Shown: positions 24,444 through 29,908 of the stretch, piece by piece
Position numbering within the stretch: position 1 is the stretch's first letter
Layout: each line of letters opens with the position of its first letter
Assembly (NCBI GenBank): GCA_016208585.1
Contig: JACQXR010000118.1
Coordinates: forward strand, 1-40,099
Direction of reading: 5' to 3'
From: a candidate division TA06 bacterium
Lineage (GTDB): Bacteria > Edwardsbacteria > AC1 > EtOH8
Length of the DNA stretch: 40,099 nt
Notes under the pieces: model-generated
What the model saw: the letters and a program-made list of their open reading frames with translations, nothing else
Told to the model about the DNA's origin: nothing
The model's database searches: none
Program-made: the position numbers and the translations under genes

Positions 24444-24896
24444 ATGAAACACAAAATTCTTTTGGCTGTGGCCCTGCCCCTGCTTTTAGCAGGATGTTTC
24501 GGCAACAAGCAGGAAGTTCAAAAGCCTTTGGGCGAACCGGTGGCCGAGGCTCCGGCCAAGACCCCCTTCCCGGAACAACCGCCCGTTCCCGCCCCGGCCC
24601 CGCAGGATAACTCGGGCATGACAGTGCTTTCCGGCAGCAAGGGCCCAGTGCAGCAGGTCTACGGATGGAGGGTGCAGTTGTTCGTCTCCGGCTCCATCGA
24701 GAATGCCCGCCGGGTGGCCGAGGAAGCCCGCTGGAAATTCGAGGACCAGCAGATTTACATCTCCGAATCCCTGCCTTATTACAAGGTCCAGGCCGGCAAC
24801 TGCCTGACCCGCCAGGATGCCGACAATCTTAAAACCCGGGCCAAAGTCCTGGGCTATCAGGGATCGTTTGTGGTGGAGATGGATCTTACCCGCTGA
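24444..24896 (+). CDS. SPOR-domain lipoprotein
   Basis: A 150-residue putative lipoprotein. The signal peptide MKHKILLAVALPLLLAGC ends in the lipobox L-A-G-C18, so Cys18 would be lipidated. Residues 20-70 are a Pro/Ala-rich linker that could span the periplasm. Residues 73-148 form a SPOR domain (WRVQLFVSGSIENARRVAEE, then YYKVQAGNCLTRQDADNL), which binds denuded peptidoglycan glycan strands at septa. Retention in the outer or inner membrane cannot be settled by sequence alone. Two possible ribosome binding sites are present: AGGAGG at 24426-24431 and AAGGA right at the start. A tiny ORF overlaps its stop as TGATG. Confidence 0.88.
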   Translation: MKHKILLAVALPLLLAGCFGNKQEVQKPLGEPVAEAPAKTPFPEQPPVPAPAPQDNSGMTVLSGSKGPVQQVYGWRVQLFVSGSIENARRVAEEARWKFEDQQIYISESLPYYKVQAGNCLTRQDADNLKTRAKVLGYQGSFVVEMDLTR

Positions 24897-25499: not shown

Positions 25500-25838
25500 A
25501 TGACTTATTTCAAAAGCTACATCAAGAATAAGATCGTGCCCCAAAAGTGCTGGGACGATATCTTTGAACTGCTGGCCAGCGTCAACAGCCCGGAGGTGGA
25601 GGACTGGCTGGAGGAGCGGGGGCAAAGCGGCTTTACCATCGAGGAGTTCATTTATTTCCTGAATTCACTGGACGAGGACGAGATACGGGACTGGCTGTGG
25701 GAACACCGGGAGGATTTCTCGGCGGTGCTCTCCCGGCCCTCTTTCAATTTTGACGACAGCCGGATGGTGGGCTCCAACAACCGCTGGTGCAACGTGCTGT
25801 TTCTGTCGGCCAACAAAAGATCAGATATAAAGGAGTAA
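25500..25838 (+). CDS. Small acidic protein of unknown function
   Basis: A 112-residue protein from ATG 25500, which follows GGAAGAGG at good spacing and lies downstream of the promoter at 25388. I do not recognise the family. The N-terminus is basic (MTYFKSYIKNKIVPQKCWDD). The middle is strongly acidic and helical, with several Trp residues (VEDWLEERG, DEDEIRDWLWEHRED). The tail is polar and ends NNRWCNVLFLSANKRSD. There is no signal peptide or membrane segment, so it should be cytoplasmic. It ends four bases before the PorV-like gene, which carries its own AGGAG ribosome binding site, so the two probably share the promoter and might be functionally connected. Confidence 0.72.
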   Translation: MTYFKSYIKNKIVPQKCWDDIFELLASVNSPEVEDWLEERGQSGFTIEEFIYFLNSLDEDEIRDWLWEHREDFSAVLSRPSFNFDDSRMVGSNNRWCNVLFLSANKRSDIKE

Positions 25839-25842
25839 ATTT

Positions 25843-26814
25843 ATGAAGAAGACCATCCTGTTACTGGCGGTATTCTCCGCAGCTGCGGCGGTGGCCCCGG
25901 CCCAGGATTGCGGCTTCTCGTTTTTGCGCCTGCCCTTAAAAGCCAAGGCCGTGGCCATGGGCGAGGCCCTGGCCGGCGCCTCCGACGACCCGGCCGGCCT
26001 GCCCTATAACCCAGCCGGACTGTCGCTGATAAAATCCCGGCAGGGCTCGGCCGGCTACACCAATTATGCCGCCGATATCCAGGCCGGCAGTTTAAACTAT
26101 GTCCAGCCCTGGGATCAATGGGGAACCTACAGCGCCGGGATCTCCTACCTCAACAGCGGCTCCATCAAAGAGACCACCATGGACATGCCCACCGGCACCG
26201 GAAACACCTTCAGCTACAATACCCTGGCCCTGTCGCTGGGATACGGTCGGGTCATCAGTTCCCAGCTTTTTGCCGGGGCCGCGCTGAAAGGGATTTACGA
26301 CAAGGTGCAGGAATATTCGGCCGCCGCGGTGGCGGTGGATCTGGGCGTTCTATATGAAATTGACATGGAACAGGCGGCTAAAATTCTATTAAAAGCCAAG
26401 GGCCGCCACAATTACGGCAGCAGCCTGACCGCCGGATTCTCGGCGCTGAACCTGGGAGTGGCCGCCAAGGCCTTCGTCAACGAAAAGGAGAAACTGCCCC
26501 TGACCTTCCGGGGCGGACTGGCCTACCGTCCGGTCCTGAACCGCCTGACCGTGGCCCTGGCACTCTCCAAGGCCATAGATGCCGGGGTCAAGGGCCAGCT
26601 GGGTCTGGAATATTTTGTGAAGGATGCGTTGGCCCTGCGGCTGGGATACAACGGCACCATGGGAGGCATCAAGACCGGCTCCGATCTGGACGACTTTACC
26701 GGGCTGGCCTGCGGACTGGGGATCTGCATCAAAAAATACCGGTTAGATGTGGCTTACGCCCCGATGGGCGGGCTGGGTAATCCCTTGCGGGCAGATATCT
26801 CAGTTGAGTTTTAA
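25843..26814 (+). CDS. PorV/PorQ-like outer-membrane beta-barrel protein
   Basis: A 323-residue exported protein. The signal peptide MKKTILLLAVFSAAAAVAPAQ probably ends at the AxAQ site near residue 21. The segment LPLKAKAVAMGEALAGASDD, followed by LPYNPAGLSL, is the signature of the PorV/PorQ (UPF0164) family. Alternating aromatic strands then suggest a FadL-like barrel, ending in an aromatic residue (ISVEF), as outer-membrane barrels do. In Bacteroidota PorV shuttles type IX secretion cargo at the cell surface. The protein at 28001 has a T9SS-type C-terminal domain. It probably belongs to one transcription unit with the 25500 gene, closed by the terminator at 26830. Confidence 0.85.
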   Translation: MKKTILLLAVFSAAAAVAPAQDCGFSFLRLPLKAKAVAMGEALAGASDDPAGLPYNPAGLSLIKSRQGSAGYTNYAADIQAGSLNYVQPWDQWGTYSAGISYLNSGSIKETTMDMPTGTGNTFSYNTLALSLGYGRVISSQLFAGAALKGIYDKVQEYSAAAVAVDLGVLYEIDMEQAAKILLKAKGRHNYGSSLTAGFSALNLGVAAKAFVNEKEKLPLTFRGGLAYRPVLNRLTVALALSKAIDAGVKGQLGLEYFVKDALALRLGYNGTMGGIKTGSDLDDFTGLACGLGICIKKYRLDVAYAPMGGLGNPLRADISVEF

Positions 26815-26829
26815 ATCCAAGGATTATTT

Positions 26830-26858
26830 AATGGGCGGACTGAAACCGCCCATTTTTT
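26830..26858 (+). terminator. Intrinsic terminator after the PorV-like gene
   Basis: A nine-base-pair stem AATGGGCGG (26830-26838) / CCGCCCATT (26846-26854) with loop ACTGAAA, followed by a run of T up to 26858. It lies 15 bases after the stop codon. Confidence 0.85.
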
Positions 26859-26884
26859 GATTAACAGAATCCGGAACTTCACGC

Positions 26885-27933
26885 ATGAATAATTCCGATC
26901 ATATTGAGATAATCAACGACCAGCCGGAATACAGCGGAACCGGGGTTTACGCCTGGAACCTCTACCGGAACATCAAAGACCTGGTGCCGGTGAAAATGGC
27001 GGATTGGAATCCTCCCTGGAAATAAAGGGTAAAGGACCCAAACCGTTCTTTTGGTGGCGGTGCAGCCGGGCTTATCGGCATCAGGAGAACGTCCACCTGG
27101 TCAGCCAGAATCTCTCGTTCCTCAAAGCAGGCAACAAAAGGATCGTCACCTGCCTGGATCTGATACCGCTTTTCATGCCGTCATCCCTGTTGGAGAAATG
27201 CTGGAGAGGTTTTCTTTACTCGGGGATAAAGAAGGCCGACCACGTTATTTCCATCTCCCAAGCCACCAAAAAGGACCTGGTGAGGATCTACAAACTGGAT
27301 CCCCGGAGGGTCACTCCGGTATTGCTGGGCGTCACCCCGGAATTCAAGCCATACAACAAGCGGGCCAGCCGGGAGCTGCTGGGGCTGCCCCGGGAGGAGA
27401 AGATAATTTTACAGGTGGGAACCGCCGCCCCCCGGAAAAATTTCATCACCACGCTGAAGGCCTTTGACCGCATAGCCCGGGGAAATGGCAACATCAGGCT
27501 GGTAAAAGTCAATCCGGCAGGGATAAAGGACAAGGAATTCATTGCCCGGTCTGGCCTGTCATCAAAGGTCCTGGTCAGGGAATCGGCGGCCAAGGAGCAT
27601 ATGCCGCATTACTACGCGGCCGCTGATGTCTTCGTTTTCCCCTCGCTCTACGAAGGTTTCGGCTTGCCGGTGCTGGAGGCCATGGCCTGCGGCTGCCCGG
27701 TCATTGCTTCCAACAATTCCTCAATTCCCGAAGTGGTGGGGGAGGCGGGGATAATGATAGATCCCCTCAATGAAGTCTTGTGGAAGGAAATGATCCTTTC
27801 GGTATTATCGGACCAGGGTTTATCCCAGAAACTATCCGCCGAAGGCTTGGAGCGGGCCAGGCTTTTTACCTGGCAGAAGACTGCCGGGGAAACGCTGCAG
27901 GTCTATCAAAAAATATTTAAAAATAGTTCTTGA
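26885..27933 (+). pseudogene. Family 4 glycosyltransferase with an apparent frameshift
   Basis: Two overlapping frames together make one GT4 enzyme. Frame one starts at ATG 26885 and reads MNNSDHIEIINDQPEYSGTG-VYAWNLYRNI, the usual GT4 N-terminal strand and glycine loop, but stops at 27023-27025. Frame two, open to TGA at 27933, carries the rest: TCLDLIPLFMP, ISQATKKDLVRIYKL, VGTAAPRKNF and the donor motif SLYEGFGLPVLEAMACG. Joining them needs a -1 shift somewhere between about 26960 and 27020 and gives about 350 residues, normal for the family. The only start for frame two alone is a TTG at 27004 without a ribosome binding site, and it would lack the acceptor loop. This could be a genuine mutation, a sequencing indel or, less likely, programmed frameshifting. 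A terminator lies just upstream; no promoter is obvious. Confidence 0.8.
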
Positions 27934-27958
27934 CAAAAGGCTTTTATCGGTGTATAAT
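27930..27958 (+). promoter_or_regulatory. Perfect-consensus sigma70-type promoter
   Basis: TTGACA (27930-27935), a 17-base spacer and TATAAT (27953-27958): every conserved base is present. The -35 box overlaps the stop of the frameshifted gene. Transcription would start near 27965, so ATG 28001 rather than any upstream in-frame codon begins the next gene. Confidence 0.88.
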
Positions 27959-28000
27959 GTGCTACAAAGGATAATGGTAATCATAAAAAAGGAGCCGGTC

Positions 28001-29908
28001 ATGAAAAAGTTATCTTTTCCTCTGGCAGTTTTGGCTTGTTTAAGTATCTCCACGGCAGTTTCCTTTGCCGGAACCTGGGTGGAATCTTCGCAGGCCGATT
28101 TTGCTGATGGCGATTTCAACGCCAACGTTTTCACCTCCAAGGAAGGCAGCGACAGCGGTTGCGTTAAATCTGCGCCGGGAGCGTTCTATGACCTGAACAA
28201 GGATGGCCGGCCGGACATTATCATATGTAATTTGGAAGGCTCATACACATACATCTATTGGGGAAAGCACGATTGGACATATTCTGCAGACAGTTCACAA
28301 TCCCTGCCTTCCAGCGGATCAACCGGTAACTCGGTAGATGATATTGATAAGGACGGTAATTTGGACATTCTCATCAGTAATTATTATGGGAATGCTGTGA
28401 TTTATTGGGGCAGTAAAGCCGGATATTCTGCAGATAATTCTACAACTTTAACTGCATATGCCGGCCACGGCAATAGTATTGTTGACCTTAACCATGACGG
28501 TGCCTTGGATATCCTTGTATCTCGCATGAATGGAACAGAGATATATATTTTTTGGGGAAATAAAAAGGATAGAAGGAGCTTTATCCGAACAACTCTTAGC
28601 GGATTTAGTTCTTCCGATGTTGCCGTGTCCGATCTTAACAAAGACGGCGTATTGGACATTGTGGTCCCCAACAAACAGGGAAATTATCCTCCGGCCGGCG
28701 GATTCACTTTCAGCATCCCTTCGTACATCTACTATGGGCAAAAAAGCCAGGACTCGGTGTTTTACAACGACAACGCCAAGGATTCCTTGGAAACCTATGG
28801 AGCTTACTGCGTCTCAATCGGTGATGTGGATAAGGACGGCTGGCTGGACATAGTGTTCAGCAATCACCGTAACGATGCGACGTATAATGTTAATTCCTAT
28901 ATTTATTGGGGCAGCGCCACAGGTTTCAAAACAAAACCACGCCAAGAACTTGAAACGCATTCTGCCATTGGAAACACAATCGTCGATCTGGATCGTGATG
29001 GCAATAACGATATTATTTTTGCCAATTGGTATAATGATCTATCCTATAAAATAAATTCTTTCGTGTACTGGGGGCCAGACTTTAGTGCCAGAACAGAATT
29101 GCCGACCAACGGTGCGCATGGCGCATTGGTAGGCAAGTTATCAAATAACAGCATCAATGATGTTCTCATAACCAATAGTTACGGGGGGTGGAGCTATATC
29201 TTTCACGGGGTCTCAAAAACGGGATACATTAGTTATGATTCTCTCCCGTCATCTTACGGTCACATTTCCACCAAAGATAATGGGAACATCCATAATCGGG
29301 GCAAAACCGAGACATATAATTCTTCTGTTTTCGGCAACGGCACCGATACTTACTCCTGGGGTACTTGCTCCTGGAACGCCACCCTGCCAGTCGGGACTTC
29401 CTTGCAGGTTCAATTAAGATCGGGCAACACTGCCAATCCCGATGATGGAGCATGGAGCACCTGGTCGCCGGTGGTCAAATCGGGAGGCAAAGCCGGGCTG
29501 GCAAACTCCAAATATACGCAATATCAGGTGATATTCACTACCAATGATTATTTTGGAACCCCGACCGTAGACGGTTTCTCACTGGACTATCAGATAATCA
29601 CCGGGATTGCCGGCGGGGCGGGGGAGGAATCGGGACGGAAATATTTCAAGATTAGTAATCTGCCGAAATTGGGGGGAGCGGATATCGTCTATCAACTCAG
29701 TGTCCCAGAAAGAGTAAGGATTAATATTTATAACATTGAAGGACGCTTGGTGGCGAACCTAGCGAATACTGTGCAATCTTCCGGGCAACATCAGCTTAAG
29801 TGGGAGGCAAAGAACGCATCAGGTTCCATGGTTTCATCGGGTATCTATATCTGCCGGGCCGAGATCGGCAGGGATATTTATTTTGGCAAGATAGTGCTGG
29901 TAAAATAG
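28001..29908 (+). CDS. Secreted FG-GAP/VCBS-repeat protein with T9SS-type C-terminal domain
   Basis: A 635-residue exported protein. The signal peptide MKKLSFPLAVLACLSISTAV ends near SFAG. At least six FG-GAP/VCBS-type repeats follow, each with a calcium-loop pattern: DLNKDGRPDI, DIDKDGNLDI, DLNHDGALDI, DLNKDGVLDI, DVDKDGWLDI and DLDRDGNNDI. They are followed by an aromatic YIYWG strand and suggest a beta-propeller. A beta-sandwich-like segment comes next. The last ~75 residues (RINIYNIEGRLVANL, then SSGIYICRAEIG, ending GKIVLVK) look like the Por/T9SS type-A sorting domain or a FlgD-Ig-like domain. ATG 28001 follows AAAAAGGAG and lies after the consensus promoter. The likely role is surface display, with binding partner unknown. 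Confidence 0.88.
   Translation: MKKLSFPLAVLACLSISTAVSFAGTWVESSQADFADGDFNANVFTSKEGSDSGCVKSAPGAFYDLNKDGRPDIIICNLEGSYTYIYWGKHDWTYSADSSQSLPSSGSTGNSVDDIDKDGNLDILISNYYGNAVIYWGSKAGYSADNSTTLTAYAGHGNSIVDLNHDGALDILVSRMNGTEIYIFWGNKKDRRSFIRTTLSGFSSSDVAVSDLNKDGVLDIVVPNKQGNYPPAGGFTFSIPSYIYYGQKSQDSVFYNDNAKDSLETYGAYCVSIGDVDKDGWLDIVFSNHRNDATYNVNSYIYWGSATGFKTKPRQELETHSAIGNTIVDLDRDGNNDIIFANWYNDLSYKINSFVYWGPDFSARTELPTNGAHGALVGKLSNNSINDVLITNSYGGWSYIFHGVSKTGYISYDSLPSSYGHISTKDNGNIHNRGKTETYNSSVFGNGTDTYSWGTCSWNATLPVGTSLQVQLRSGNTANPDDGAWSTWSPVVKSGGKAGLANSKYTQYQVIFTTNDYFGTPTVDGFSLDYQIITGIAGGAGEESGRKYFKISNLPKLGGADIVYQLSVPERVRINIYNIEGRLVANLANTVQSSGQHQLKWEAKNASGSMVSSGIYICRAEIGRDIYFGKIVLVK

Follow-up and report, generated by a model that had tools for sequence, protein, structure and literature searches.

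In the type IX secretion system (T9SS) of Bacteroidota, the ejection of cargo and carrier from SprA uses the input of a multi-protein energy chain, according to passages of PMC12635249. Passages of PMC12618676 report that in Flavobacterium johnsoniae PorV serves all type A tails, and that type B tails use specific shuttles, often encoded by adjacent genes. SprA is called specific to the Fibrobacterota-Chlorobiota-Bacteroidota (FCB) group in PMC12611786, where its spread over the FCB phyla is tabulated. In the passages of that paper on FCB SprA, Chlorobiota is the sole FCB phylum without BamG and BamH and also lacks SprA; neither the motor nor Edwardsbacteria is treated there. Por-type tails have been reported in Fibrobacteres (extracts of PMC6851124 and PMC4814513). 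Because of these reports of a wider spread in the FCB phyla and Fibrobacteres, the presence of SprA outside Bacteroidota is not new. Here, we compare with these systems a locus of Candidatus Edwardsbacteria that encodes a PorV/PorQ-family outer-membrane protein (the window barrel) and a protein with VCBS repeats. The locus lies in a stretch of 40,099 nucleotides (the window), which is contig C118 of assembly G000 (2.51 Mb, 95.8% complete).

The features concerned, in window positions, are the following.

25843..26814, + strand: PorV/PorQ-family outer-membrane protein of carrier group D, 323 amino acid residues (aa), recognized by NF033709

28001..29908, + strand: probable surface cargo with FG-GAP/VCBS repeats, 635 aa (FG-GAP_3, 100.3 bits)

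28190..29002, + strand: six calcium loops (D-x-[DN]-x-D-G), with first residues 64, 114, 162, 211, 275, and 329 of the VCBS protein

29660..29905, + strand: C-terminal type IX-like sorting domain, residues 554-635, matched by the lineage tail profile, TIGR04183, and FlgD_ig

The outer-membrane core

Judging from homology in 10 genomes (G000-G009), all of them metagenome assemblies, Candidatus Edwardsbacteria probably has a type IX-like route for outer-membrane export and anchoring. SprA was found in all 10 genomes. The SprA of the window genome (contig C136, 1895 aa) scored 335 bits against TIGR04189 (cut-off 200), and a profile built from seven Edwardsbacteria SprA proteins matched the solved SprA 6h3i_A (E 3.5e-42). 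PorU, encoded on contig C34, scored 597.8 bits against NF033707 (cut-off 420), and the solved PorU 6za2 aligned with it along almost its entire chain (E 8.9e-42). H844 (in the GHG motif) and C878 of this protein align with the His and Cys of the solved PorU, which we take to be the catalytic pair. Downstream of porU lie genes for a PorV-family protein (850 aa) and for an M6-like protein with a tail.

Tails over the TIGR04183 cut-off numbered 78 in G000 and 78 of 79 matches in G001, with PorU's own tail counted. Of 14 named control genomes, two gave tail matches, one of them over the cut-off. A profile of the ten best tails of G000, built with the window's tail excluded, scored 59.4 bits on that tail and aligned to its last residue (E 4.2e-17, at a search size set by hand to 2500). 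The tail of the VCBS protein thus appears to group with the other tails of its genome. The preliminary description had proposed a type IX-like export route from the window alone; this proposal gained support from the genome, in which sov/sprA and porU, two of the genes it had named, were both found, along with PorV-family proteins and the 78 tails. The refuting outcome that it had named, a genome without core T9SS genes and a tail recognized as FlgD-Ig only, did not occur.

We infer the following transport steps. Cargo such as the VCBS protein would pass the inner membrane by Sec and thread the SprA channel, its C-terminal tail would be caught by a PorV-family carrier, and PorU would cut the cargo and fix it to the surface. 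At the outer membrane, the route most likely works like the T9SS. The VCBS protein itself would be such a substrate. Its N-terminus, read by eye, is signal-like. It has six calcium loops, whereas 2000 shuffled versions of it had 0.11 on average and never more than 2. Both features had been described before and were borne out here.

A second PorU-like sortase (1637 aa) is encoded on contig C111, with scores under the cut-offs of both PorU (321.4 against 420) and PorU2 (196.7 against 450). It contains a GHG motif, and a pattern search for the Cys gave no match. This gene adjoins one for a protein that scores 115.5 bits with the PorV2 model (cut-off 325); the pair is at L024:11227-17139.

PorV-family carriers and linked tail genes

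The PorV/PorQ signature ascribed to the window barrel was confirmed, with 151.2 bits against the NCBIfam family model NF033709 (cut-off 90). The protein is under the equivalog cut-offs of PorQ (NF033711, 142.1 against 220), PorV (NF033710, 58.2 against 250), and PorV2 (36.8 against 325), as well as under that of Pfam PorV (22.4 against 27). The sole solved chain that it matched at E ≤ 1 is PorV 6h3i_F (E 9.8e-7). Its barrel nature is taken from this family membership; the single-sequence AlphaFold model had a mean predicted local distance difference test (pLDDT) of 32 and was not used. The window barrel may act as a carrier, for the VCBS cargo or for others.

The family is large in this lineage. 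PorV-family matches, all rows counted, were 15 in G000, 18 in G001, and 3 in the Bacteroidota-like control G212, with 5, 6, and 1 of them, respectively, over the cut-off. A tree of 34 carriers placed those of the phylum in seven groups, each fully supported, with an uncertain deeper order. Its rows are the fetched loci, without the weaker members of the family (such as L147 and L148) and without some carriers of the other genomes. The carriers form at least seven orthologous groups. In groups A (porU operon; 2 loci), B (5), C (6), and F (PorV2-like; 2), all 15 loci have a tail gene immediately next to the carrier gene and on its strand. The closest tail gene of group E lies 0.9-1.1 kb off in 5 of 5 loci, and no tail gene was found nearby in three loci of group G. 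Of the seven carriers of at least 40 bits in G000, six have a tail within 3 kb (P 1.9e-4), as do seven of the nine in G001 (P 1.8e-4); the null is an approximate genome fraction without shuffling.

The group C pair recurs in all six fetched genomes. In G000 (L135:2423-4880, - strand), the barrel (103.9 bits with the PorQ model) lies 13 bp from a tail protein whose best match is the PorZ model, over the tail region only. These two proteins possibly form an attachment complex.

The porU-operon PorV (L023:3826-6375 and L141:7262-9733, both - strand) has an insertion of ~500 residues after its first ~70 residues. The insertion has no Pfam match, and proteins 834-867 aa long are found again in several genera.

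Evidence against the route and alternative readings

A number of observations weigh against a type IX-like route that includes the window pair. The evidence comes from sequence, in metagenome assemblies. All Edwardsbacteria proteins examined score under the PorV equivalog cut-off of 250. When the 15 rows of G000 and 18 of G001 are merged to 13 loci each and all are counted, linkage to a tail falls to 6 of the 13 in G000 (P 0.018) and 7 of the 13 in G001 (P 0.0042), and the linkage counts take in PorU-type sortase tails as well as the window pair. The window tail passes FlgD_ig (33.6 bits, cut-off 27) and fails Pfam Por_Secre_tail (18.9, cut-off 27). The VCBS gene stands near the group D barrel in the window and in only 3 of 8 other loci; G005, G006, G007, and G008 lack it (it was looked for at the locus only), and what G002 keeps of it is an N-terminal piece close to the end of a contig. 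Finally, GldL, GldM, and GldN were all undetected in the 10 Edwardsbacteria (the GldK profile was not run).

The alternative that survives best concerns the window barrel, which could be a PorQ-like protein of the attachment complex or have another task, with the VCBS protein carried by the porU-operon PorV. We place this a little short of an even chance. The group D barrel occurs in 9 of the 10 genomes (orthologs in 8 of the 9 others) and was not found in the four G009 loci inspected. The VCBS gene lies ~1.2 kb downstream of it in the window, G001, G003, and G004, that is, in 4 of these 9 genomes. A dedication of the barrel to the VCBS protein was rejected, as the four genomes that lack this gene at the locus keep the barrel. 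Because the VCBS gene comes and goes while the barrel stays, the cargo is a changeable part of the locus, and group D is therefore not clearly dedicated to the VCBS protein. The pairing of barrel and cargo that had been implied for the window was thus weakened: neither G007 nor G008, the two other genomes of the genus, has the cargo gene at the locus.

This constancy of the barrel beside a variable cargo fits the present alternative, and PorQ is its best function-specific model (142.1 bits). Furthermore, the porU-operon barrel tops the PorV model among the proteins of its own genome that were examined (114.7 bits; others 21-85), and the type A tails of F. johnsoniae are all reported to use PorV (passages of PMC12618676). 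However, the score of the window barrel is under the PorQ cut-off, and the PorQ-like protein of this lineage may instead be the group C barrel, which is tightly paired with the protein whose tail matches PorZ.

The second alternative is that a complete canonical T9SS is present, with GldL, GldM, GldN, and GldK diverged beyond the Bacteroidota-built profiles, which may miss diverged forms. We consider this possible but somewhat doubtful. The searches were run with the GldL, GldM, and GldN profiles, and the controls with a motor were G071 and G212, both taken as Bacteroidota from their scores. No Edwardsbacteria genome had GldL over the cut-off of 68.3 bits, in a run where G071 scored 195.1 and G212 scored 190.3. 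GldM gave no match in the 10 genomes even at E ≤ 1 (G071, 362.3; G212, 394.4 bits in the same run), and neither did GldN (106.5 and 179.3 bits). The porL, porM, and porN genes, which the preliminary description had named together with porK, were therefore not recovered over the cut-off in any of the 10 Edwardsbacteria. A loss of the motor genes merely through absent sequence was rejected, since completeness is given as 100% for both G001 and G007, and the same runs found the proteins in the controls.

A diverged motor is favored by GldL matches under the cut-off. At E ≤ 1, 5 of the 10 Edwardsbacteria gave such matches, the highest at 18.3 bits (E 0.002), and in four of the five they fall in almost one stretch of the profile (163-242). 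Two other SprA genomes, G135 and G153, had GldL under E 0.001 (19.6 bits, with a stop inside, and 20.5 bits, against the cut-off of 68.3). On the other hand, GldL at E ≤ 1 also matches 9 of 14 control genomes, and stops interrupt two of the four Edwardsbacteria pieces. SprA and PorU score far over their cut-offs in the window genome. GldM and GldN gave nothing in the ten even at E ≤ 1, while all three proteins were found in the two controls with a motor. As a rough guide, Edwardsbacteria SprA keeps ~12% of the control's score; at this rate, GldM would still score ~49 bits, although scores need not fall alike.

The same pattern extends beyond the phylum. In a sample of 290 genomes, 120 matched SprA; 73 over the cut-off were kept, and 47 were dropped for later searches. 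Ten of the 73 are the Edwardsbacteria, and the remaining 63 belong to 48 families. Of these 63, G212 alone (SprA 2705 bits) has GldL, GldM, or GldN over the cut-off, and the other 62, in 47 families, have none. G071 was not among the 120 SprA-matching genomes and may have been outside the 290-genome sample. With the GldL/GldM motor and GldN undetected, either a very diverged motor or a different energy source has to be assumed. With three defining parts looked for and not found, the Edwardsbacteria route does not count as a full T9SS. The searches for porL, porM, and porN gave nothing over the cut-off (porK was not run), and "type IX-like" is therefore the proper term.

The weakest alternative, that the tail is an ordinary FlgD-type immunoglobulin (Ig) domain without an export signal and that the barrel and the VCBS protein are unrelated, is improbable: it can draw on the Pfam scores given above and on the closeness of FlgD (E 0.015) to the first Foldseek match, PorZ (E 0.010), for a low-confidence tail model (pLDDT 64), but it is opposed by the lineage tail profile, which matches to the last residue, and by the 78 tails in a genome with SprA and PorU. 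The Foldseek search returned PorZ, FlgD, and other Ig folds. Since no match was under E 0.001, the fold does not separate an export tail from a FlgD-type Ig domain. The tail had been described as of Por sorting or FlgD-Ig type; the lineage profile supports the former, and TIGR04183, the kind of profile that had been named for the comparison, is borderline around its cut-off of 23 (21.8 bits by hmmscan, 25.3 by six-frame search).

Neighboring genes

Three further features of the window belong to this locus.

24444..24896, + strand: SPOR-domain lipoprotein-like protein, a syntenic neighbor (SPOR, 36.9 bits, cut-off 21)

25503..25838, + strand: small conserved protein (111-112 aa) whose gene immediately precedes the barrel gene

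26885..27933, + strand: GT4 glycosyltransferase, between the barrel and VCBS genes (Glycos_transf_1, 104.1 bits)

The SPOR-domain gene is conserved in seven fetched loci, and the locus further holds a flippase-like gene (labeled by eye) and a YfhO-like gene. The small upstream protein is 45-96% identical in eight other genomes. Between G000 and G001, it is 57% identical and the barrel 49%; the reverse holds against G005 and G006, with 45-48% for the small protein and 53% for the barrel. The first 46 codons of the glycosyltransferase gene, on which the preliminary description was silent, are in a different frame from the remainder (27004-27933), and its relatives (362-373 aa) are in a single frame. 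The window copy thus looks frame-shifted near its start, which may be an assembly error.

The VCBS protein is 73% identical between G000 and G001 in its body and 42% in its tail, next to the 49% of the barrel. In the G004 locus (L150), compared with G001 of the same genus, the VCBS gene is 57% and the flippase-like gene 38% identical, and the barrel 79%, as if the VCBS/flippase-like part of the locus had been exchanged. In G002, the N-terminal part of the VCBS gene (L156:39-1198) lies beside a transposase-looking open reading frame (by eye), close to the contig start.

Discussion

In the literature searched, mostly outside subscription journals, nothing was met on type IX secretion in Edwardsbacteria; in the excerpts returned for Edwardsbacteria and secretion, the sole topic was the origin of phospholipid genes. 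Likewise, the matches listed for SprA lineages without a motor, in their excerpts, held no paper on that subject. What was not met in the literature searched is the combination of type A carrier-cargo gene pairs with a motor that escapes detection.

SprA, a sortase, carriers, and dozens of tails without a recognizable motor point to an unknown or very diverged motor or to another mode of export, and either answer would change the view of how type IX systems evolved. Tentatively, and leaning slightly toward doubt, we suggest that the SprA-PorV-PorU core predates the GldL/GldM motor and is more widespread. In Edwardsbacteria and in many lineages besides, SprA would then draw on another energy source in place of this motor, and type A cargo would use dedicated PorV-family carriers encoded by adjacent genes, not one general PorV. 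The choice of a carrier by a tail could be tested directly on the carrier-cargo gene pairs.

Compared with the T9SS of Bacteroidota, Edwardsbacteria share SprA, a PorU with the aligned His and Cys, PorV-family proteins, and many type A-like tails. They differ in that GldL, GldM, and GldN were undetected, and in that they hold more PorV-family proteins, most examined groups of which are linked to tail-bearing genes. The position of a carrier gene beside its cargo gene resembles that of the F. johnsoniae type B tails and their adjacent PorP/SprF shuttle genes, as described in passages of PMC12618676. In contrast to that type B arrangement, the Edwardsbacteria tails fit the type A model, and their carriers belong to the PorV family.

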